NCBI GenBank assembly: GCA_012523015.1
Contig: JAAYJI010000352.1
Span: 1-46,725 of the forward strand
Source: Candidatus Hydrogenedentota bacterium
GTDB lineage: Bacteria > Hydrogenedentota > Hydrogenedentia > Hydrogenedentales > CAITNO01
Direction: 5' to 3'
Length of the DNA stretch: 46,725 bases
The translations under genes were made by a program, and so were the position numbers. Position 1 is the stretch's first letter. Each line of letters opens with the position of its first letter. Below are positions 18,396 to 29,766 of this stretch, one piece after another. The notes under the pieces are model-generated. The model saw only the letters and a program-made list of their open reading frames with translations, had not been told where the DNA came from and made no database searches.

Positions 18396-18854
18396 CTATC
18401 TTATTCGTTTGACGATGCGTTCCATCTCTCGGTCTGATTCTCTTTTCTTGATGGATTCGCGTTTATCATAAAAATGTTTGGCCCGGCACAAGGCAATTTC
18501 CACCTTAACTTTCCCCCGTTTGAAGTAAACGGTTAGAGGTACCACGGTCATCCCTTTTTCCTGAACTTGCCGGGTTAATTTATTGATTTCACGTCTATTG
18601 AGCAAGAGCTTTCTCGGCCGTTCCGGCGTATGGTTGTTGATATTGCCTTGTAAATAGGGGCTCACACGGGAACCGACCAGCCACGCCTCACCTTTGTTCA
18701 AATCCACATACGATTCTTTTAGGCTGATGGCGTTATTGACGCGGATAGACTTTACTTCGGTGCCTTGCAATGCGATGCCTGCCTCGAACTTTTCCAATAC
18801 ATGGTATTCGTGGTAGGCCTTTCTATTTTTCGTGACAATCTTAATGCCGCTCAT
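18396..18854 (-). CDS. smpB: SsrA (tmRNA)-binding protein SmpB
   Basis: The 152-residue protein has typical SmpB length and order: VTKNRKAYHEYHVLEKFEAG, GIALQGTEVKSIR, the SYVDLNKGEAWLVG strand, and a basic C-terminal tail with KRESDREMERIVK that reaches the decoding centre. SmpB delivers tmRNA to stalled ribosomes for trans-translation. The ATG overlaps the stop of the upstream membrane-protein gene in an ATGA, so it is probably translated as part of the 25.15-18.4 kb series. No tmRNA gene is seen in the window. Confidence 0.95.
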   Translation of the reverse strand: MSGIKIVTKNRKAYHEYHVLEKFEAGIALQGTEVKSIRVNNAISLKESYVDLNKGEAWLVGSRVSPYLQGNINNHTPERPRKLLLNRREINKLTRQVQEKGMTVVPLTVYFKRGKVKVEIALCRAKHFYDKRESIKKRESDREMERIVKRIR

Positions 18855-20497
18855 GATTCCCCCAATTCGGTGCTTTGTGTGTCCGCCGTCTCGTCATTTG
18901 TTGGGGCATGTAGGTCAGCCGCCATATTGATCTTGACCTCAGCGCGGAGCCGTCCCTCACTCCAAGAGGCGAGCAATGCCGCTTCTTTCACCCGTGACGC
19001 AGATTCTTGCCATGATTTGGCGGCGAGCTCCAAGCTCTCCGGCGTATATCCGCGCAATAAACCGGAATAGGCCAATTCTCGTGCTGCATCCAACAAGGTG
19101 TCTGCCACTTCAGGGGGCTTGACCGAAGCGTACAAATTGCCCTGCTGATTAAAGCCTTGCACGAGGGGCAAGGTGTTTTTCATGTTGATTGCCAAAGGCA
19201 GACTGGAGCTGAACAAGATCCCTTCATTATAGGTCAACAATGTAGGTTCGAGATTGGGCCCGCCCACGAAAGGCACGTGACAAAGCATTTCTTCCGCATT
19301 GAGGCGCGGACACAAATCTATTTCATCGGCAGTCTCCGGCGTGGCGGGTATATTTTCGAAAAGGAAAAGCATTCGATCTGTATTCGCTTCAAAGGTGGCT
19401 GCCACAAGTGGCACGGGCATTATTTCGTTGGAATCCATGCCGAACCAACCCAAACGAACCCGTGAATCGCTGGTTTGGAGCATGGAAGCAATTAAGGGTT
19501 GCAAGGACGTAATTTCTGTCTCGTCTTCGGGCATTCTGTAACTGTGCCACAGCCATTCGGGGAAGATGTTGGTCTCGTAAAACACTTTGGCCAGTCCATC
19601 CAATATTTGCGACAAGGGTTTCCCAAAATCCATGGAAACAGAAAAGAGCGTATCAAAAGGAATGGGCAGCGTTTGTCCCGTAGTAGAGGGCAATAACATT
19701 TCATATTGCTGTTGGAACGCGTCGGAGAATCCTCCCTGCACCAGAAAACGGATAGACTCTTTTTCAAACTTTAAGGCAAAGGATAAGGCTTCGAAAGGAC
19801 GGAAAGACTCTTCAAATATTTCCGGTTCCAAGCGGCAGTAAATATCTGCGCCGCCGGACTCTTTGACACGTTCCGCAAGATCCGACTCCGTCAGCGCCTT
19901 TGCTTTTTCCAAGGTAAGGGCGAGGATCAATTCGTCTCGTGACATGGAGAGCAGCAACATGCGCCCGCGTACAGCGTAGTAAAGGGAAGCATCAGGGAGA
20001 TAATGAAGTTTCAGTCCGCCTGCAGTGTCGGCTTTAACGATAGGCAGCAAACGGGCGGCTTTTTCGGCGATGCAGCCGACACGGGTCATTTTGGTGACAA
20101 TCAGGGTATTGTCGAAGTCTTGAAAGTTCTTTCCCGAGACGAGGCAAAGACCGCTGTTCAGATTTTTTAAGAGCCACTCGGGCACGGGCAATTCTTGGGC
20201 AATGCCGTCCATCACATGTCGCAAGGAGGAAGATTCCCAAAATAAGGGGGCGAGATTACTGTCGATGACATCTTGGCGACGCTGTACCACATCGTTGATA
20301 TACACTTGGAAATTAGCATCTTTTCCAATGAACGACGCCATGGGATGATTGTCTCGGGTTATCCAGATCCCCACAATGACGAGCAGAACAATCAGCGGGA
20401 CAAGATATTTAGCGACACTGACGCTGTGCCTGTGTAAGAGGCGGCGGCGGCGGTTTGTTCCCCTTTTCATGCTATAAAAACGTAAGGTCTCAGTCAT
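18851..20497 (-). CDS. Single-span membrane protein of unknown function
   Basis: The 548-residue protein has a strongly basic N-terminus (RRRRLLHRH), one transmembrane helix (about 31-46, YLVPLIVLLVIVGIWI) and a large extracytoplasmic part of alternating helices and strands. It has no recognised motif, though the plan recalls DUF3352-type proteins. GGAG lies 8 nt before the ATG. It overlaps the ceramidase-like gene by 8 nt upstream and smpB by 4 nt downstream, so it is clearly in the operon. The Gln/Leu-rich central region shows no cysteines arranged as metal sites. Function is unknown. Confidence 0.75.
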   Translation of the reverse strand: MTETLRFYSMKRGTNRRRRLLHRHSVSVAKYLVPLIVLLVIVGIWITRDNHPMASFIGKDANFQVYINDVVQRRQDVIDSNLAPLFWESSSLRHVMDGIAQELPVPEWLLKNLNSGLCLVSGKNFQDFDNTLIVTKMTRVGCIAEKAARLLPIVKADTAGGLKLHYLPDASLYYAVRGRMLLLSMSRDELILALTLEKAKALTESDLAERVKESGGADIYCRLEPEIFEESFRPFEALSFALKFEKESIRFLVQGGFSDAFQQQYEMLLPSTTGQTLPIPFDTLFSVSMDFGKPLSQILDGLAKVFYETNIFPEWLWHSYRMPEDETEITSLQPLIASMLQTSDSRVRLGWFGMDSNEIMPVPLVAATFEANTDRMLFLFENIPATPETADEIDLCPRLNAEEMLCHVPFVGGPNLEPTLLTYNEGILFSSSLPLAINMKNTLPLVQGFNQQGNLYASVKPPEVADTLLDAARELAYSGLLRGYTPESLELAAKSWQESASRVKEAALLASWSEGRLRAEVKINMAADLHAPTNDETADTQSTELGES

Positions 20498-22847
20498 AGT
20501 TTTTCTCCGAAAGGCTTAACCGTGTAAATTTGCCGACAGTACCCGAAGGCACAGGGAAAGCCACTTCCATCACTTGGGCGCTTGGCAGAAAAACGACACT
20601 GTGCCGCGTTTGCGCGTTCCAAATGCGCTCAAGATTATCGACAGCAGGCTGACCGGCACCGGTTAAGATCTGTTTGAGCGTCTCTACGGAAAGTTCCGGT
20701 TGGGCATTGAGCAATTCACGAGCCGTAGCATAGCGCTTGCGTGTGGCGGATGATGCCTGCACATTTTCGGGTAATACTCCCAGCAATACGCCATCCTCAG
20801 CTTCGCGAACCGTAACGGTCTCCCCCATCTCTACAATGGCGGCACGGGGATTTTGACCTTCCATACCCGCCACCAACACATGGGTGTTTCGGATATGGTC
20901 GATCCTTTGAAGCCTTTCAATGGCATCGGCGTACGACACAGCATATTGAATGATATCGCGCAGGAGAAACTCAAGGGGCGCTTTTTCGGGAAGCTGCCCC
21001 ACTTCCGGATGAAGCCGCTCTACACAGAGCACCAAGCCCTTTTCATTCATTGCTGTCAGCAGACCGGCATTCCAGGTAAATCCTGCCTGTAGAAAGGCAT
21101 GGCCCTCGTCGGGAAGGACTTTAGTAACAACTCCTTTTTCTTGGAGACGCCAATCCAGATTCCGACCGATGATCAATTCTTCCTTGCCTGCCCGTTTACC
21201 AATGACTGCAGCCATGGTGCAAATCGGCGCTGCATAAAGAAGTGCTTTGTCATCGATACTATCGTAAAGAGGCGCATTTTGCAACAACCAAAGCCCGTCA
21301 AAAGGCAGGCGTGCTCCCGTCGCCATCCCCTCCATTTCCTGCAGCAATTCCAAGGAGATGTCTTTCAACAAATTGCGTGACCCCATGCCCATGAACGCCA
21401 GAGCGAGAACAGGCACATTGACAAAGGAAGGAATGCTTTTCCAAAAGCCGCCTTCGGGCAGCCAAGTGCCCTGAGCAACAGATTGGACAACGCGCTGCTC
21501 ATAACGCATCTGAATATCAGCGGTAAACAGATTGCCCCGCTGCAATCCCCTGTGCTGAGGACTGCCGCTGAGGGTCACCAAGCTTCCGCCGTCTAAAGTC
21601 TCCACCGGCGCTTCTTTAAATGCTTCGACAGGATCAGGTGCCGCTGCGCCACGGGTCATCACAGATTCGAATTGTTCATAGAACCAATCTTCAGTGCCCG
21701 GGCCGAAAAAGGTCATGGCCGATTCGTAAGTCAGGTCTGCGTAGAGATGTCTGGGGACAAAATACCCGAGATAATCGTTGCTCAGTCCAACGGACAAATG
21801 AGCGCCATAGCCATGATTCAAAGCGATGCTGCGCATCTTAAGCCCCAGCTCCACGCAAGGTTCTCCGGGGAAAAAGGAAATCAATAAATCGTTAATTTCC
21901 AGGGATGCAATTAGCACTTCGTCTGGATGAAAAAAGGAAGCCAAGCTCGGCGGCAGTGAAGCCATTTTTTGCGTGTACGACAAGGTAGGCTGCGAAAAAC
22001 TCAAGCTCTGAGACAGTTCAAAAGCCTGATTCGCCAACGCTCTGCCCATTGCTTCGGTGCGTTCCCATCCGCCCTTGTTTCCTGGAGGTGAAATGGTTTG
22101 ATTACCTTCCGCACCGTTCAAGAAAAAGGAAACACAGTCAGCGCCTAACAAGCTATCCATTTCATCATAGTAAAACCCGGGATAATCGGCAGAAAAATTG
22201 AACTTGTCTCCATCGCCTATGGAGGTAGGATGGGCAGCAAGATTGGATAGAAAGGCTATCGGATTCCCGTCGCTATCCTCAATCATGATGACGCCTAATT
22301 GCGGATCTACCGGGCCGCCGCTATAGCGGCGATTAACCGTGATTCCGTCATGGTATCCCACGGCATAACCCAAGGCGGCGGTACGGCGTTTGGAAAAGGC
22401 ATTCTTCATGGCTTCCGCAATGCGCACGGCGGTAGTTTCAAGGACATCCGGTATAAAGCGTCCCGATACGAAACGGAAGGGAATGTTGCGGCACATGCCG
22501 CCATGACCGTTATGGGTATGGGTGGCTGTCAAGATAATGTTTTCCGGATTGATAAGATCGGCAACCAATTCCTCCACACGCTGACGCAGTTCCGGGTTTA
22601 CGGCAACCAGATCGAGGCTCACCCAAAAGAGTTGTGTATTGCCGTCGTTCAGATACAGCGCCCTTGCCCATAGGGGATCATGAACACCGGTAGAATTCTT
22701 TCCCATGCGATCCCCATAGCCATTGAGAGGCGTACCGATGGGTGGTGTAATTTCTATTTTTGCGGCGCCGGCTTCAAAAGCTTGAGCCGGCAGGTGCAGC
22801 GCTACGGCTCCCAGGACGAAGCAAAGAAGGAAGAGGAGTCTCTTCAT
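20490..22847 (-). CDS. Secreted fusion of a neutral-ceramidase-like domain and a C45/NTN acyltransferase-like hydrolase
   Basis: The ATG at 22847 opens directly onto a classical signal peptide (MKRLLFLLCFVLGAVALHLPAQA). Other in-frame starts are an ATG at 22895 and a GTG at 22964 that overlaps the preceding stop; none has a good ribosome binding site. Residues 24 to about 420 match the neutral/alkaline ceramidase fold: FEAGAAKIEITPPIGTPLNGYG, TATHTHNGHGG with His110/His112, and NGAEGNQTISP near the expected nucleophile loop. The second half looks like a C45/choloylglycine-type Ntn hydrolase: Cys543 in PICTMAAV, IIGRNLDW, NEKGLVL and LLRDIIQYAVSYADAIERL. Both parts act on amide-linked lipids or acyl-amino compounds, so a secreted two-step amidase is plausible but unproven. 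Confidence 0.8.
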   Translation of the reverse strand: MKRLLFLLCFVLGAVALHLPAQAFEAGAAKIEITPPIGTPLNGYGDRMGKNSTGVHDPLWARALYLNDGNTQLFWVSLDLVAVNPELRQRVEELVADLINPENIILTATHTHNGHGGMCRNIPFRFVSGRFIPDVLETTAVRIAEAMKNAFSKRRTAALGYAVGYHDGITVNRRYSGGPVDPQLGVIMIEDSDGNPIAFLSNLAAHPTSIGDGDKFNFSADYPGFYYDEMDSLLGADCVSFFLNGAEGNQTISPPGNKGGWERTEAMGRALANQAFELSQSLSFSQPTLSYTQKMASLPPSLASFFHPDEVLIASLEINDLLISFFPGEPCVELGLKMRSIALNHGYGAHLSVGLSNDYLGYFVPRHLYADLTYESAMTFFGPGTEDWFYEQFESVMTRGAAAPDPVEAFKEAPVETLDGGSLVTLSGSPQHRGLQRGNLFTADIQMRYEQRVVQSVAQGTWLPEGGFWKSIPSFVNVPVLALAFMGMGSRNLLKDISLELLQEMEGMATGARLPFDGLWLLQNAPLYDSIDDKALLYAAPICTMAAVIGKRAGKEELIIGRNLDWRLQEKGVVTKVLPDEGHAFLQAGFTWNAGLLTAMNEKGLVLCVERLHPEVGQLPEKAPLEFLLRDIIQYAVSYADAIERLQRIDHIRNTHVLVAGMEGQNPRAAIVEMGETVTVREAEDGVLLGVLPENVQASSATRKRYATARELLNAQPELSVETLKQILTGAGQPAVDNLERIWNAQTRHSVVFLPSAQVMEVAFPVPSGTVGKFTRLSLSEKNYD

Positions 22848-22960
22848 TCGATGGGCATGTTTTTTCGTTTTGTTAATTGTAGATAAAGCGTTCATGGAGC
22901 AGAAAATTCCCTGCGGTTTTACCGCATTCAACAAGATCGTAGTGCATTCAGTAACCGGAC

Positions 22961-25150
22961 TCACTTCCTGCGATGGGACAAGACCTTTTTCAAGGCTGTC
23001 ACCACTTCGTTAATATGTCGATCGTTCAATTGTGGATGCAGTGGAAGCGAAATGATCCGATTCGACAATGAGGTCGCCACCGGTAAATCCTGCGGCTTTA
23101 TTTGAAGCGCCTTTGCGTAGTATTCATGGAGATGAAGTCCGTAAAAATGGACGCCTGTCCCAATGTTTTCGCGCCTCAAATCTTGGACAATTTCATTTCG
23201 GTCTCGGGTCAATTTGTCTAAGTTTAATTTAATTATATAGAGATGCCACGCGTGTATGCCATCTTCAACGTTGGGCGGCAATTCTATTTCATCCACATCA
23301 GCCAATACGGTGCTGTACATCTCGGCAATCCGTTTGCGGGACGCGGCAAAAGCGGGGAACTTTTTCATTTGCTCGATCCCCAGTGCTGCATTGACATTGC
23401 CCAAAGCATATTTAAATCCCGGCGTAACAACCTCTGAGGGTGCGGGAACTGCACTGCGCCCGTAGCGGTCCCAGGCCGTTGCCATCATACCATTGGCGGA
23501 AAGTTGGCGGATATGTTCTGCTAATTCAGCGTCGTTTAACGTAATAACGCCGCCTTCCATGGTGGTAATGTTTTTCGTGGCATAAAAGCTGAAACAACTC
23601 AAGCCCTCTGAACCGATAGGCCGATCTTTGTACCACGTGCCGAAGGCATGGGCGGAGTCTTCAACAATCGGAATAGCAGCGGCGGCGGCAATACTCCGTA
23701 TAGCGTCCATATCGCAGGGCATTCCCGCCATATGGACGGGCATGATCGCCTTGGTTTTTTCGTTGATCGCTTCGCGCAATGCTTCAGGATCCATGTTCAT
23801 ACTGTGGGGATCCACATCAACCAAACGGAGTGAAGCGCCCATGTTTACAATGGTGTTGGCGGTGGAAGCCCAGGTAATGGGTGTGGTGATCACCTCATCG
23901 CCGGGACCGACACCCAAGGCAGCCAGACATAAATGCAAGGCTGCCGTGCAGGAAGAAACGCCAATAGCATACTTCGCGTGGAGTTCTTCGGACACCATCT
24001 TTTCGAATACCCGTATTTGCGGGCCTGAAGTGAGCCAACCACTGCGAAGCGCGTTAATGACCGCACGTTCTTCTTCGGGTCCTAAGTTGGGGCGGCTTAA
24101 AGGAATGAACCGAGCCGCTACGGGTTCGCCGCCTTCGTCGACAGGAGTAGCGCGAAGCCGTTTCATACGATCTACATTGAAATAGGCCTCTGCGAAGGGC
24201 TGAAGGGTGTCGTCTCGGAGAAAAGCTTGGATCTCTTCAATACCCTTTGAAATTCCTTGCATAGGCGGGGTATCAAGAAGGGCGTTCAATTTCGTAAAAC
24301 GAACCCGGTAATTACGTAAATCGTCATCATCTTTCGCCAGATCAATTTCTACACCGCCCAGAGCGTCGGAGACGAGCTGCGCCAATTCTTTAATGCGGAT
24401 ATTTTGTGCGTCTGAGCCTACATTAAATATTTTACCGGCAACCAAGTCATCGGAAAAGGATGCCAGGCGCAATAAAACAGAAGCAGCATCGCGAATATGC
24501 AAAAAGGGACGCCATTGTGAACCACCACCGCGCACGACAATCCGTTTGTTGCGCATGGCTGCGGCGACCATGTAATTGACGGCCAAATCAAAGCGCATCC
24601 GTTTTGAAAAACCGAAAAGCGTCCCCATACGCGCCACGACCGGAGCAAAAGAAGTAGAGGTCATATTGAGCAAGGCTTGTTCCGCCTTGAGTTTGGTTTC
24701 TGCAAAGACAGAGACGGGATTGGCAGGACTTTCTTCATCCAAGATTTCAAAAACGCCGTTGCCGTAGACAGCGCATGTGGAAGCGAAGACAAAGTCTTTT
24801 ACATTGGCTTCAATAGCTTGACGTGCCAATTCCAAGCTGCAGTCAACATTGATTTGATGGTCCATTTCAGGATCGAGATCACAGGTGGGATCACTGGACA
24901 AGCCTGCCAAATGAATGACGGTGTCCACCCCGTATAATAAGCCGGGATGTTCTTGTAAACGGCGGATATCCCCTTGAATCAGCTGCAAGCGGCCGGAAGC
25001 CAATTCTGGCTCAAACATTTTTTCAGGCTCAAGCGACGGAGGTAAAAAACAAAAACGATCCATCACGCGCACTTGGTGCCCCAAAGCGATTGCCTGTGCT
25101 ACCAGTTCTCCCCCAAGATAACCGCCCCCGCCTGTCACTAAAATATGCAT
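22961..25150 (-). CDS. Fusion of NAD-dependent nucleotide-sugar epimerase/dehydratase and DegT/DnrJ/EryC1/StrS aminotransferase
   Basis: One continuous frame of 729 residues. Residues 1-330 are an extended SDR: HILVTGGGGYLGG (2-14), Asp31 after strand 2, HLAGLSSDP, ASTCAVYG (123-130), and TKLKAEQ with Lys153. The residue where the catalytic Tyr of YxxxK is expected is Phe149. Residues 345-725 form a sugar aminotransferase: PLSRPNLGPEEERAV, SSCTAALHL, EVITTPITWAST, VEDSAHAFG, and the PLP lysine Lys526 in FYATKNITTMEGG. Together they would make a keto sugar nucleotide and aminate it. The gene heads the minus-strand series, with its stop overlapping a GTG of the ceramidase-like gene. Separate proteins are the norm for these activities. 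Confidence 0.88.
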   Translation of the reverse strand: MHILVTGGGGYLGGELVAQAIALGHQVRVMDRFCFLPPSLEPEKMFEPELASGRLQLIQGDIRRLQEHPGLLYGVDTVIHLAGLSSDPTCDLDPEMDHQINVDCSLELARQAIEANVKDFVFASTCAVYGNGVFEILDEESPANPVSVFAETKLKAEQALLNMTSTSFAPVVARMGTLFGFSKRMRFDLAVNYMVAAAMRNKRIVVRGGGSQWRPFLHIRDAASVLLRLASFSDDLVAGKIFNVGSDAQNIRIKELAQLVSDALGGVEIDLAKDDDDLRNYRVRFTKLNALLDTPPMQGISKGIEEIQAFLRDDTLQPFAEAYFNVDRMKRLRATPVDEGGEPVAARFIPLSRPNLGPEEERAVINALRSGWLTSGPQIRVFEKMVSEELHAKYAIGVSSCTAALHLCLAALGVGPGDEVITTPITWASTANTIVNMGASLRLVDVDPHSMNMDPEALREAINEKTKAIMPVHMAGMPCDMDAIRSIAAAAAIPIVEDSAHAFGTWYKDRPIGSEGLSCFSFYATKNITTMEGGVITLNDAELAEHIRQLSANGMMATAWDRYGRSAVPAPSEVVTPGFKYALGNVNAALGIEQMKKFPAFAASRKRIAEMYSTVLADVDEIELPPNVEDGIHAWHLYIIKLNLDKLTRDRNEIVQDLRRENIGTGVHFYGLHLHEYYAKALQIKPQDLPVATSLSNRIISLPLHPQLNDRHINEVVTALKKVLSHRRK

Positions 25151-25411: not shown

Positions 25412-25834
25412 GTGAAATTATCAAAGAAAACTGACTATGCCCTGAGAAGCTTGTGTTATCTTGCCGCAGAAGATAGGGAAGAATATATTTCGATACGCGC
25501 CCTTTCCGAAGCCAACGATATCCCCTATCGCTTTTTACAACAAATTGTGCTTGATCTGAAACAACACGGGTGGATTATTACGCAGCCGGGCAGAGATGGC
25601 GGTTTGCGCCTTGCCCGCCCTGCCGATGCCATTACCGTGGGCGAAGTGGTTCGTGTTTTTGATGGTGTCTTAGCGCCTATAGGCTGTGTGTCCATCACCA
25701 ATTATGAAGCGTGCAGCCAAGAAACGACCTGCCTATTCCGGCCCCTGTTGTTGGAAGTTCGTAATTACACCGCTGATTTACTGGATCGTACGACCTTACG
25801 CGACCTCATTGACGGCAAAACCAAGGTGGAGTAA
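25412..25834 (+). CDS. Rrf2-family transcriptional regulator with three-cysteine cluster
   Basis: The 140-residue protein starts at a GTG with GGAAG 9 nt upstream. The winged helix-turn-helix covers about 1-70 (KLSKKTDYALRSLCYLA, PYRFLQQIVLDLKQHGWI, GRDGGLRLARP). Cys92, Cys101 and Cys107 are spaced C-x8-C-x5-C, the region where IscR and NsrR bind an iron-sulfur cluster. It lies 20 nt before a sulfate-binding protein gene. By context it probably controls sulfur uptake in response to cysteine or Fe-S status, as CymR and related Rrf2 proteins do. Whether the cysteines hold a cluster cannot be seen. Confidence 0.88.
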   Translation: MKLSKKTDYALRSLCYLAAEDREEYISIRALSEANDIPYRFLQQIVLDLKQHGWIITQPGRDGGLRLARPADAITVGEVVRVFDGVLAPIGCVSITNYEACSQETTCLFRPLLLEVRNYTADLLDRTTLRDLIDGKTKVE

Positions 25835-25854
25835 CTGAGAAGGAAGAGTCGGGG

Positions 25855-26961
25855 ATGCTATCTAAACTTGATACGGGTTCAGCTTGGGGAAGAATCCTCT
25901 CTCTGTCTTTTTTTGCCTTCTTTCTTCTTTGTGTGCCCTTGCTCTTTTCCTGTTCGAATCATAATGACCCCTTGCGCGTTGATTTGCTCAATGTGTCCTA
26001 TGACCCCACCCGTGAACTATACCAAGACTATAACGCTTGGTTTGCCCAAGCCTGGCGTGAGGAAACGGGGCAACATGTGGCTATCCGACAATCCCACGGC
26101 GGTTCGGGCAAGCAGGCACGGTCAGTGATTGACGGTTTGGAAGCCCATGTGGTGACTCTTGCCCTAGCCTATGATATTGACGGGATTGTGGATAAGAGCG
26201 GGCTTATAGATTCAGACTGGCAGAACCGTCTGCCCTTCAACAGCGCGCCCTATACCTCTACTATTGTGTTTCTTGTGAGAAAAGGAAATCCCAAATCGAT
26301 CCAAGATTGGGACGACTTGGTTCGGCCGGACGTGGAGGTGATCACCGCCAACCCGCTCACTTCGGGCGGCGCACGGTGGGCCTATTTAGCAGCTTGGGGC
26401 TATGCCCTCGACCGCGCTTCCGGCGGCAGTTTCCCTGCGCCTTCGCACGCGGGAGAAGCATTAACGGAAACGGAAACCCAGGCTTATGCCTTTATAAAGC
26501 GCCTCTTCCAACAGGTACCCGTATTGGATTCCGGCGCACGGGCGGCAACGACCACTTTTTTACAAAGAAACATTGGGGACGTGTTGTTGACATGGGAAAA
26601 TGAAGCGTTTTTGGTCTTAGACCTGGAAATTGCCGACGGGATAGAGCTCGTTGTACCGTCTATCAGCATTCTGACAGAACCCACCGTCGCTTGGGTGGAT
26701 GCGGTAACCAAGCGGCGGGCTACGGAGACTGTTGCAAAGGCGTATTTAGACTATCTCTATGGGCCGGAAGGTCAGCGGATCATTGCGAATCATTATTTTC
26801 GGCCAAGGCATCCTGAATATGTGGAAGCAGAGCATTTGGCACGCTTTGTAGATGTGAAACTATTTACCTTGGAATCCTGCTTTGGCAGTTGGCAAGAAGC
26901 CCATACCCGTCATTTTTCTGAATCAGGCTTGTTCTCTTCACTGTTTAGCGCTTCACCATAA
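25855..26961 (+). CDS. Sulfate/thiosulfate-binding lipoprotein of ABC transporter
   Basis: The 368-residue protein has a lipoprotein signal ending LFSC (Cys33), so it is anchored rather than free periplasmic. The mature part matches the CysP/Sbp family: LLNVSYDPTRELYQDYN, QSHGGSGKQARSVIDGLEAHVVTLALAYDID, the TSGGARWAYLAAWGY motif and FLQRNIGDVLLTWENEA. The SHGGSGKQ and DPTR segments are part of the sulfate pocket in this family. Permeases and ATPase follow directly. GGAAGAG precedes the ATG. Confidence 0.92.
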   Translation: MLSKLDTGSAWGRILSLSFFAFFLLCVPLLFSCSNHNDPLRVDLLNVSYDPTRELYQDYNAWFAQAWREETGQHVAIRQSHGGSGKQARSVIDGLEAHVVTLALAYDIDGIVDKSGLIDSDWQNRLPFNSAPYTSTIVFLVRKGNPKSIQDWDDLVRPDVEVITANPLTSGGARWAYLAAWGYALDRASGGSFPAPSHAGEALTETETQAYAFIKRLFQQVPVLDSGARAATTTFLQRNIGDVLLTWENEAFLVLDLEIADGIELVVPSISILTEPTVAWVDAVTKRRATETVAKAYLDYLYGPEGQRIIANHYFRPRHPEYVEAEHLARFVDVKLFTLESCFGSWQEAHTRHFSESGLFSSLFSASP

Positions 26962-26985
26962 GAATTCGGCAAGGAAAAGCACAGC

Positions 26986-27825
26986 ATGGCATTACCGATT
27001 AAACGGCGTCACTTTCTTCCGGGCTTTGGATTGAGTCTGGGCTATACGATCACCTATCTCAGTCTTCTTGTCTTGCTTCCCCTGTCTATCTTGGGTTTCA
27101 AAGCACTGTCCCTTGAGCTGAGCACCTTTAAGACGGTTCTTTTAGATCCCCGTACCCTTGCCGCGTTACGCCTGAGTTTTGCCGCCGCTTTTATAGGCGC
27201 GTCCTTAAATCTTGTCTTCGGCTTTGTGGTTGCGTGGACCCTTGTCCGCTACCCTTTCCCCGGTCATCGCGTTGTGGACGCCTTGGTCGATATCCCCTTT
27301 GCCCTTCCTACGGCAGTGTCAGGGATTGCGCTGACAACACTCTTCGCACGAACCGGTCTTATCGGCCGCTTCCTGGATATGCTGGGGATACAGGTTGCTT
27401 TCGCCCCTGCAGGCGTGGTCGTGGCGCTTACCTTTATCGGACTTCCTTTCGTGGTGCGCACCTTGCAGCCCGCCATAGCCGACCTAGATCCTGAGTATGA
27501 AGAGGCAGCACGGAATCTGGGCGCGTCATCCTTCACCCTATTTATTCGCGTAAATTTACCCTCCTTACGGCCGGCATTGCTGACCGGCTTCACCCTTGCA
27601 TTGGCGCGGGCACTGGGCGAATATGGTTCTGTTGTCTTCATTTCCGGCAATCTACCCATGCGCACCGAGATCATTTCTTTGTTGATTATGGGTAAATTGG
27701 AACAGTTCGATTATGCCGGTGCCACGGCGTTGGCGGTCATCGCGCTCTGCCTCTCCTTTTTGATGTTGTTGTCTGTTAATCTTCTCCAGTGGCGTCTCAG
27801 CCGCAAAACGCAACAGGTAGATTGA
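26986..27825 (+). CDS. cysT: Sulfate ABC transporter permease CysT (CysU)
   Basis: The 279-residue protein has six hydrophobic spans. The EAA loop shows as EEAARNLGASSFTLFIRVNLPSLRPALLTG. The stretch GYTITYLSLLVLLPLS and DALVDIPFALPTAVSGIAL are typical of CysT. It forms the channel with CysW for sulfate or thiosulfate entry. AAGGAAAAG lies upstream of the ATG. It lies 24 nt after the binding protein and 1 nt before cysW. Confidence 0.93.
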   Translation: MALPIKRRHFLPGFGLSLGYTITYLSLLVLLPLSILGFKALSLELSTFKTVLLDPRTLAALRLSFAAAFIGASLNLVFGFVVAWTLVRYPFPGHRVVDALVDIPFALPTAVSGIALTTLFARTGLIGRFLDMLGIQVAFAPAGVVVALTFIGLPFVVRTLQPAIADLDPEYEEAARNLGASSFTLFIRVNLPSLRPALLTGFTLALARALGEYGSVVFISGNLPMRTEIISLLIMGKLEQFDYAGATALAVIALCLSFLMLLSVNLLQWRLSRKTQQVD

Positions 27826-27826
27826 T

Positions 27827-28693
27827 ATGAGCTCTAATCGTTATCGTTTTCACTGGACCAAATATTGTTGCACCCTCGTGACCCTCGTTTTTCTCTCTGT
27901 ATTTCTGGTGCTCCCCCTTATCCTTGTATTTATAGAAGCTTTTCGCGGCGGCATCAATAGCTACATCGCCGCCATTACAGAAGCGGACGCCCGTGCTGCT
28001 GTACTGCTCACGCTTTTTGTGGCTGCCGTTACAGTGCCGCTCAATACCTTCTTCGGCAACATGGCCGCTTGGGCGTTGACCAAGTTCGATTATCGCGGGA
28101 AAAGCCTGCTCCTCACATTGATCGACCTGCCCTTTGTTGTTCCCCCTGTCATTGCGGGACTGATCTTCATTTTGATGCTCGGTTCCAATGGTGTCTTCGG
28201 TCCTTGGCTGAAGGCAATGGATATAACCCTTATCTTTGCGCCGCCTGCTATCTTTATTGCCACCTTCTTTATTACCTTCCCCTTCATTGTCCGTGAATTG
28301 GTGCCCCTCATGCAGGAACAAGGCAGAGATGAAGAAGAGGCTGCCATTTCCTTGGGAGCCGGCGCGTTGAAAACCTTTTGGCTCATCACACTGCCTAATA
28401 TCAAGTGGGCGCTGCTCCATGGAATTATCTTATGCAATGCACGAGCCATGGGCGAATTTGGCGCCGTCTCGGTGGTCTCCGGACACATAAGAGGCTCTAC
28501 CATTACCATGCCCCTTCATATAGAGATTTTATATAACGAATACAACTTCAGCGCTGCCTTCGCTGTTGCGTCGCTCCTCGCCATGCTCGCTTTGGTCACG
28601 CTCCTTATCAAAAGCTTACTGGAATGGCGTCTTCAACGGGAGCGGCGCGGATTTGCTCAACATGGTCCAACTCAGGAAGGAACGTTAATGTGA
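27827..28693 (+). CDS. cysW: Sulfate ABC transporter permease CysW
   Basis: The 288-residue, six-span permease has [33 protein letters not shown] and the EAA loop [31 protein letters not shown], then [19 protein letters not shown], characteristic of CysW. It starts 1 nt after the cysT stop. Its last codons ATG-TGA overlap the GTG start of cysA, so the two are translationally coupled. Confidence 0.93.
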
Positions 28694-29766
28694 GTATCGA
28701 AGTCACGAATATCAGCAAATCCTTTGGCGATTTTAAGGCGCTGGACAATGTGAGTCTCCGTGTTGATACAGGAGAGTTGGTCGCCTTGTTGGGTCCTTCC
28801 GGCTCTGGCAAAACGACATTGCTTCGGATTATCGCCGGACTGGATATCCCCGATGACACGCCGGGAGCCAAGGTGATGTTGAGCGAGGAAAATGTAGCCC
28901 GCTGCGATCCCGGCAATCGTCGCGTTGGCTTTGTGTTTCAACACTATGCGCTCTTCCGACACATGACCGTATTTGATAACATCGCTTTTGGACTTCACGC
29001 CCGGCCGCGCCGTACCCGCCCTTCCAAAGGAGCTATTCGAGAAAAAGTAATGCAGCTGCTGCAACTGATCCAGCTGGAAAATCTGGGGAACCGCTATCCA
29101 GCGCAACTCTCCGGAGGACAACGGCAGCGGGTGGCTTTGGCACGCGCCCTTGCTATCGAACCGCGTGTGCTGCTCTTGGATGAACCCTTTGGCGCTTTGG
29201 ATGCACGGGTGCGGCAGGATCTGCGGCGCTGGCTTCGCCGCCTCCACGAGGAGATTCATGTGACCAGCGTTTTTGTGACCCACGACCAAGAGGAAGCGTT
29301 GGAACTAGCAAGCCGTGTAGTCGTGATGAATGAAGGCAAGATTGAACAAATCGGCGCACCCGATGAAGTATTTCACCAGCCTGCCACCGAATTTGTCATG
29401 AAGTTTTTAGGGAATGTCAATTTCTTTCACGGCCGTATAGAATCGGGAAAGGCGATTTTTGGAGGCTGGCAATTACATACCACTTCCCTGACTTGCGAAG
29501 ACGGTTCGCCGGCACGCCTATTTGTGCGGCCCCATGATTTAGAAATCGTGAAAGAGTCTCACGGTGCATCGACGGCTCTTGCCTGCGTGCGGCGCATCCA
29601 ATCTGCAGGCCCGCACGTGAAAGTAGAATTGGAATTGGACACGGGCGAATCTGTATTGGTGGAACTATCCCATGAACGATACAGACAACTTCGCCCCAAG
29701 CCGGGCGAACAGGTTTTCATCAACCTGCGCAATGCTCGGATCTTTACAGAAGATTACATGATCTGA
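28690..29766 (+). CDS. cysA: Sulfate/thiosulfate ABC transporter ATP-binding protein CysA
   Basis: The GTG at 28690 is chosen because AAGGAA lies 7 nt upstream and the protein then begins [13 protein letters not shown], the normal CysA start; a longer frame from 28624 runs back into cysW. The 358-residue product has Walker A GPSGSGKT at 35-42, the Q-loop near 84, signature LSGGQ at 140-144, Walker B LLLDEP at 161-166, and the switch His in [10 protein letters not shown]-terminal TOBE-like domain follows about 240. Its stop lies 2 nt from the stop of convergent folE. Confidence 0.95.

Follow-up and report, generated by a model that had tools for sequence, protein, structure and literature searches.

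A phylum-wide SDR-aminotransferase fusion of Hydrogenedentota has repeatedly lost the catalytic dyad of its dehydrogenase half and kept its binding features

The SDR half of a fusion protein found across the phylum Candidatus Hydrogenedentota has repeatedly lost its catalytic dyad, and its binding features have been kept. We examined the fusion gene in a 46,725-nucleotide contig (JAAYJI010000352.1, assembly GCA_012523015.1; hereafter, the window), where a sequence-only reading had noted Phe in place of the catalytic Tyr of the SDR half. The finding proved broader than that reading, being phylum-wide and not confined to a single genome. To the best explanation that we can offer, judged from sequence comparisons, we assign a probability of about one half: the SDR half would be a disarmed, binding-competent dehydrogenase module attached to a functional 4-aminotransferase, whose keto sugar another enzyme would supply.

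The minus-strand ORF from position 25150 to position 22961 of the window was open throughout, began with ATG, and encoded 729 amino acids (all parts of the fusion gene given below lie on the minus strand). By profile and fold, its N-terminal half is an extended, Cj1427-like SDR domain (residues 1 to 335; positions 24146 to 25150), with the Pfam domain Epimerase at residues 3 to 245 (131.8 bits; cutoff, 20.9). A linker that was conserved in the alignment (residues 336 to 347, PVDEGGEPVAAR; 24110 to 24145) leads to an ArnB-type PLP aminotransferase domain (residues 348 to 725; 22976 to 24109), identified by Pfam, by its match to ArnB, and by its fold. This half contains a full-length DegT_DnrJ_EryC1 domain at residues 357 to 720 (395 bits). 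Both domains were modeled with confidence by AlphaFold2 from an alignment of 50 orthologs (mean pLDDT, 90.7), and the SDR half was a Rossmann fold with a glycine-rich cofactor motif, according to the fold model and a PDB match. The PLP lysine, K526 (23573 to 23575), lies within an FSFxAxKNIT motif, was invariant, and is paired with K188 of ArnB in the alignment; in the structure of the K188A mutant (4oca), the aligned residue is Ala.

Residue 149 of the window protein, in the segment NPVSVF149AETK153, is Phe (codon TTT; 24704 to 24706). In an alignment with Escherichia coli GalE and more than 90 homologs, it fell on the catalytic Tyr column of the YxxxK motif (Tyr149 of GalE), and no substitute Tyr was found elsewhere near the site. 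A variant of the YxxMxxxK type was also rejected, because residue 146, where the Tyr would sit, is Val. The NAD-binding glycine motif is present (G7-G8-G9-G10-Y11-L12-G13, matching G7-G8-x-G10-x-x-G13; 25112 to 25132), as are T125 at the catalytic Ser/Thr position (24776 to 24778) and Lys153 of YxxxK (24692 to 24694). The [S/T]...YxxxK triad is thus incomplete, with Tyr replaced by Phe149, and the window SDR was therefore not classed as a canonical active SDR. The other SDR homologs of the window genome with a readable motif had Tyr at this site. Comparisons by ORF, Pfam, and alignment with GalE and ArnB bore out every detail of the sequence-only reading, namely the fusion, Phe149, the glycine motif, Lys153, and Lys526; its proviso that another Tyr might occupy the catalytic position was settled by the same alignment.

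Among solved structures, the SDR half was closest to Cj1427, a GDP-D-glycero-D-manno-heptose 4-dehydrogenase (PDB 6vo6 and 6vo8; profile E value, 2.7e-50; fold E value, 6e-24). The two proteins have in common an RMR[FL]DL motif, which is RMRFDL in the window (residues 184 to 189; 24584 to 24601) and RMRLDL in Cj1427. However, Cj1427 retains the catalytic Tyr, is unfused, and is only about 28% identical to the SDR half. Cj1427 binds NAD(H) tightly, the NADH being reoxidized by alpha-ketoglutarate, and the 4-keto sugar that it makes is acted on by an RmlC-like epimerase as well as a reductase (PMC10680097). The aminotransferase half matched ArnB, the UDP-4-amino-4-deoxy-L-arabinose aminotransferase (1mdo; E value, 2.7e-92), which was also its top fold match (TM score on target, 0.94 to 0.95). 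The PLP lysine and its flanking motif are common to both proteins, which are about 40% identical over the full length, but ArnB is unfused. The score of this half against the NCBIfam ArnB equivalog model NF008658 (380.5 bits) was below the cutoff of 631, so it is not ArnB in the strict sense, and its substrate may therefore differ from that of ArnB.

The fusion occurred as a single copy in 55 of 68 Hydrogenedentota genomes (52 with a full or contig-cut SDR half, 2 with a degraded SDR half [G006 and G011], and 1 cut at a contig end [G015]). The window genome belongs to this phylum, as do the closest named records. Outside the phylum, full-length fusions with approximately 42% identity were detected in metagenome-assembled genomes labeled Obscuribacter, Omnitrophota, Planctomycetota, Pacearchaeota, Acidobacteria, and an unnamed bacterium, and a full-length fusion with a more distant aminotransferase half was detected in Coatesbacteria. 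At 15 further extra-phylum loci, mostly of Myxococcota, an SDR and a DegT aminotransferase are encoded by adjacent separate genes. These fusions and gene pairs show a recurrent association of the two activities. Our literature search, made among papers available without subscription, returned no report of an SDR-aminotransferase fusion or of natural FxxxK variants. Two other architectures were noted among homologs of the same SDR: in a member of the Bdellovibrionales (L138:7872-9884), the fusion partner of the SDR is a family 2 glycosyltransferase domain and not an aminotransferase, and in one genome (G019, L178:1429-3009), the homolog is extended at its N terminus by approximately 185 residues, which weakly match exopolysaccharide glycosylphosphotransferases.

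The active site could be read in 54 Hydrogenedentota fusions. Phe149 with Lys153 was found in 37 of them and the intact YxxxK motif (Tyr149 and Lys153) in 12; three (L041 to L043) had Tyr149 with Ser or Asn at position 153, and in the remaining two (L053 and L054), the SDR half was degraded and the catalytic segment was gone. Every readable member of the window's genus had Phe149, which was encoded by TTT as well as TTC among orthologous fusions. Outside the phylum, Tyr occupied position 149 in all nine fusions and in every unfused homologue among the matches listed. We built a tree from which the motif columns were excluded and rooted it on the fusions from other phyla, all of which have Tyr. 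A clade of 34 rows (SH-aLRT, 99) was composed solely of Phe149 members and the degraded pair, and three further Phe149 lineages lay outside it. The rooted tree called for a minimum of three Tyr/Phe changes; because this quick tree contains several weak forks, the true count is uncertain, and some of the changes may be reversions. A sequence-only reading of the window had allowed that homologous fusions might keep Tyr, making the substitution a local mutation. Fusions that keep Tyr do exist, but Phe149 is conserved over most of the phylum. It was found in 37 genomes assembled independently of one another, every readable member of the window's genus among them, and this refutes a mutation, assembly error, or frame artifact peculiar to one genome.

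The residues around the altered site were strongly conserved. In Phe149 members, the NAD motif, Ser124, Tyr129, Lys153, Arg174, RMRFDL, and the GGGxQWRPF loop (residues 208 to 216; 24503 to 24529) were invariant or nearly so, with G7, G8, G10, and G13 constant in all Phe149 rows that cover the glycine motif; the loop probably binds the NDP-sugar, to judge from its position in the family. Purifying selection on the Phe149 SDR halves is strong: dN/dS ratios were 0.06 to 0.21 for Phe149 pairs with measurable dS and 0.05 to 0.16 for YxxxK pairs, and aminotransferase halves gave values similar to those of Phe149 SDR halves. The low ratios and the constant pocket indicate that the Phe149 half is a maintained domain and not a decaying one, with the exception of genus g4. 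In the two fusions of that genus (L053:7556-9598 and L054:2865-4913), the SDR half lacks the catalytic segment as well as the GGGxQWRPF loop, and the aminotransferase half is intact; dN/dS was 0.33 in the SDR half versus 0.08 in the aminotransferase half.

A search for an acid or base close to the site that all Phe149 lineages had gained found none. The clearest covarying residue was Glu107 (24830 to 24832), which was found in 37 of 37 Phe149 fusions, 3 of 3 Lys-less fusions, and 4 of 21 YxxxK fusions, and which lies in helix 94-114, away from the catalytic motif. The corresponding helix is usually part of the dimer interface in extended SDRs. Thr at position 125 was restricted to fusions lacking Tyr149 or Lys153, an association that was not significant once ancestry was allowed for.

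Two groups of stand-alone SDR paralogs with an intact YxxxK motif, B and A', were identified in the phylum. Group B includes a gene of the window genome (G000:C150:4221-5204) whose product is 33% identical to the SDR half of the window protein, and group A' has the signature CSIYDRG...YATSK. With the two groups pooled, a choice made after the data had been seen, genomes with a Tyr- or Lys-less fusion had a paralog in 40 of 42 cases and those with an intact fusion in 2 of 12 (Fisher P value, 1.7e-7). Common ancestry explains much of this association: the tree afforded only two to three independent contrasts, which agreed with the expectation without exception but were not significant. In the window genome, the paralog lies between genes for an RmlC-type 3,5-epimerase and a GT9 glycosyltransferase, and in other genomes it lies beside RmlD-type reductase genes; such neighbors are expected if the paralog makes 4-keto sugars. 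It is not adjacent to the fusion gene.

The surroundings of the fusion gene were rejected as a guide to its pathway, as no sugar operon was found around it and its neighbors differed between genera. A run of genes for a ceramidase/C45 protein, a 548-residue protein, and smpB was common to family f1 only. In the window, the first of these is a single minus-strand ORF (20490 to 22964) that encodes a neutral-ceramidase N-terminal domain (residues 63 to 251) and a C45-type autoproteolytic acyltransferase domain (residues 593 to 754); the ORF and the end of the fusion gene share 4 bases, and related genes occupy this place in several f1 genomes. The 548-residue protein (18851 to 20497, minus strand), encoded between that ORF and smpB, is conserved in several genomes of the family and had no match in Pfam or NCBIfam. 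Divergent from the fusion gene, on the plus strand (25412 to 29766), are an Rrf2 regulator gene and an ordinary sulfate ABC transporter set (binding protein, CysT, CysW, and CysA).

The ancestral gene would have encoded a self-contained oxidize-then-aminate enzyme, and oxidation by the SDR followed by amination by the fused aminotransferase is its likely ancestral role. A Cj1427-type SDR would oxidize an NDP-sugar at C4, the ArnB-type half would aminate the resulting keto group with glutamate as the donor, and the alpha-ketoglutarate released could reoxidize the bound NADH, as in Cj1427 and WbpB/WbpE. In the latter pair, the 3-dehydrogenase WbpB of Pseudomonas aeruginosa reoxidizes its NADH with alpha-ketoglutarate (PMC10622841) and WbpE is the aminotransferase. 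The resemblance is one of oxidize-then-aminate logic; WbpB and WbpE are separate proteins, and the amination is at C3. The ancestral role is plausible today for the YxxxK fusions of this and other phyla and for the unfused Myxococcota gene pairs. In most Hydrogenedentota, including the window genome, the general base would then have been lost by the change of Tyr149 to Phe. The Phe149 half still folds in the model, should bind NAD(H) and probably the nucleotide sugar, and would now serve in binding, scaffolding, or regulation. The substrate of the aminotransferase half would be a keto sugar from another enzyme, plausibly the stand-alone YxxxK paralog encoded near RmlC/RmlD-type genes. For the C4 chemistry, the loss of activity, and the supply in trans, we infer from relatives and gene content what the proteins would do.

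The sequence-only reading had left three options for the SDR half: that it works by another chemistry, that it is a module for binding or regulation, or that it channels a keto sugar to the aminotransferase. We favor the module over the other two, on the grounds that the pocket and NAD residues are kept, that Tyr or Lys was lost in separate lineages, and that one lineage is eroded; channeling, which describes the likely ancestral role, is not favored for Phe149 proteins. Mutants of related enzymes are in line with this choice. The Y149F mutant of UDP-glucuronate 4-epimerase still binds NAD+ with activity reduced approximately 1,200-fold (PMC7984243), and crystal structures of Y-to-F mutants of related epimerases, retrieved in the fold search, retain both fold and ligands. 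By analogy, the simplest expectation is that the Phe149 half binds but hardly turns over. Counting against the module are two Phe149 genomes without a detectable paralog (G021, 63% complete, and G046, 94% complete) and two YxxxK genomes that have one.

Strong conservation of the SDR pocket is also expected of a working but altered enzyme. The main alternative, a tentative one that we consider possible, is that the SDR half is still an active oxidase, dehydratase, or epimerase that works without the Tyr; its base might be, among others, Ser/Thr125 together with Cys126, Tyr129, Asp87, or water. Besides the pocket and the purifying selection on it, such an enzyme would account for the retention of Phe across a large clade (the degraded pair excepted) and for the restriction of Thr125 to Tyr- or Lys-lost fusions. 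It also has precedents in the 4,6-dehydratases WbpM, PglF, and CapE, working natural NDP-sugar SDRs that have Met in place of Tyr (PMC8987622, PMC3699295). These MxxxK enzymes lack the catalytic Tyr, as does the Phe149 SDR, but the replacement is Met instead of Phe and they are not fused to an aminotransferase. The base pair of PglF is Thr395-Asp396 (PMC8987622), and a base of that type was rejected for the window protein, which has T125-C126-A127 (Ser/Thr-Cys in the family) and FxxxK instead of MxxxK; moreover, the Cys at the Asp position is also found in YxxxK members. Tyr-independent catalysis is further opposed by the absence of any polar residue near the site gained across all Phe lineages and by the cost of the engineered Y-to-F change cited above. 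Sister lineages without Lys153 or without the whole site suggest, in addition, that canonical redox chemistry is dispensable.

It is unlikely that a slow Phe149 dehydrogenase suffices, whether through slow growth of the organisms or through a pull of the fused aminotransferase on the equilibrium. UDP-glucuronate 4-epimerase Y149F does turn over slowly, and faster at high pH (PMC7984243), but residual activity explains neither the lineages that lost Lys153 or were degraded nor the usual presence of a YxxxK paralog. Still less probable is a drift of the SDR half toward loss, with Phe149 as an early neutral step and no role kept. Genus g4, with its deleted catalytic segment and raised SDR dN/dS, looks like such an outcome, but the low ratios and near-invariant cofactor and pocket residues of the other Phe149 lineages disfavor decay. 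A speculative and rather improbable elaboration is that the Phe149 SDR is a pseudoenzyme in a mixed oligomer with the YxxxK paralog, docking the active dehydrogenase onto the aminotransferase through the changed surface of helix 94-114 (with Glu107) so that the keto sugar passes from one to the other. For an accessory role of the kind that we favor, MAT2B offers a partial parallel, as it is an extended sugar-nucleotide-type SDR fold that serves as a subunit of another enzyme (PMC3793261). MAT2B differs in being a separate polypeptide that binds NADP and retains YxxxK, and it was therefore rejected as a Tyr-less precedent (PMC3793261).

If the reading of the SDR half as a disarmed, binding-competent module is true, a whole uncultured phylum carries a natural counterpart of the textbook Y149F SDR mutant, preserved by selection within a two-step enzyme. 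The intact, Phe149, Lys-less, and eroded fusions would then provide a natural series for the fate of an SDR after loss of its base, and the gene would mark a conserved, apparently uncharacterized 4-amino-sugar route in Hydrogenedentota.
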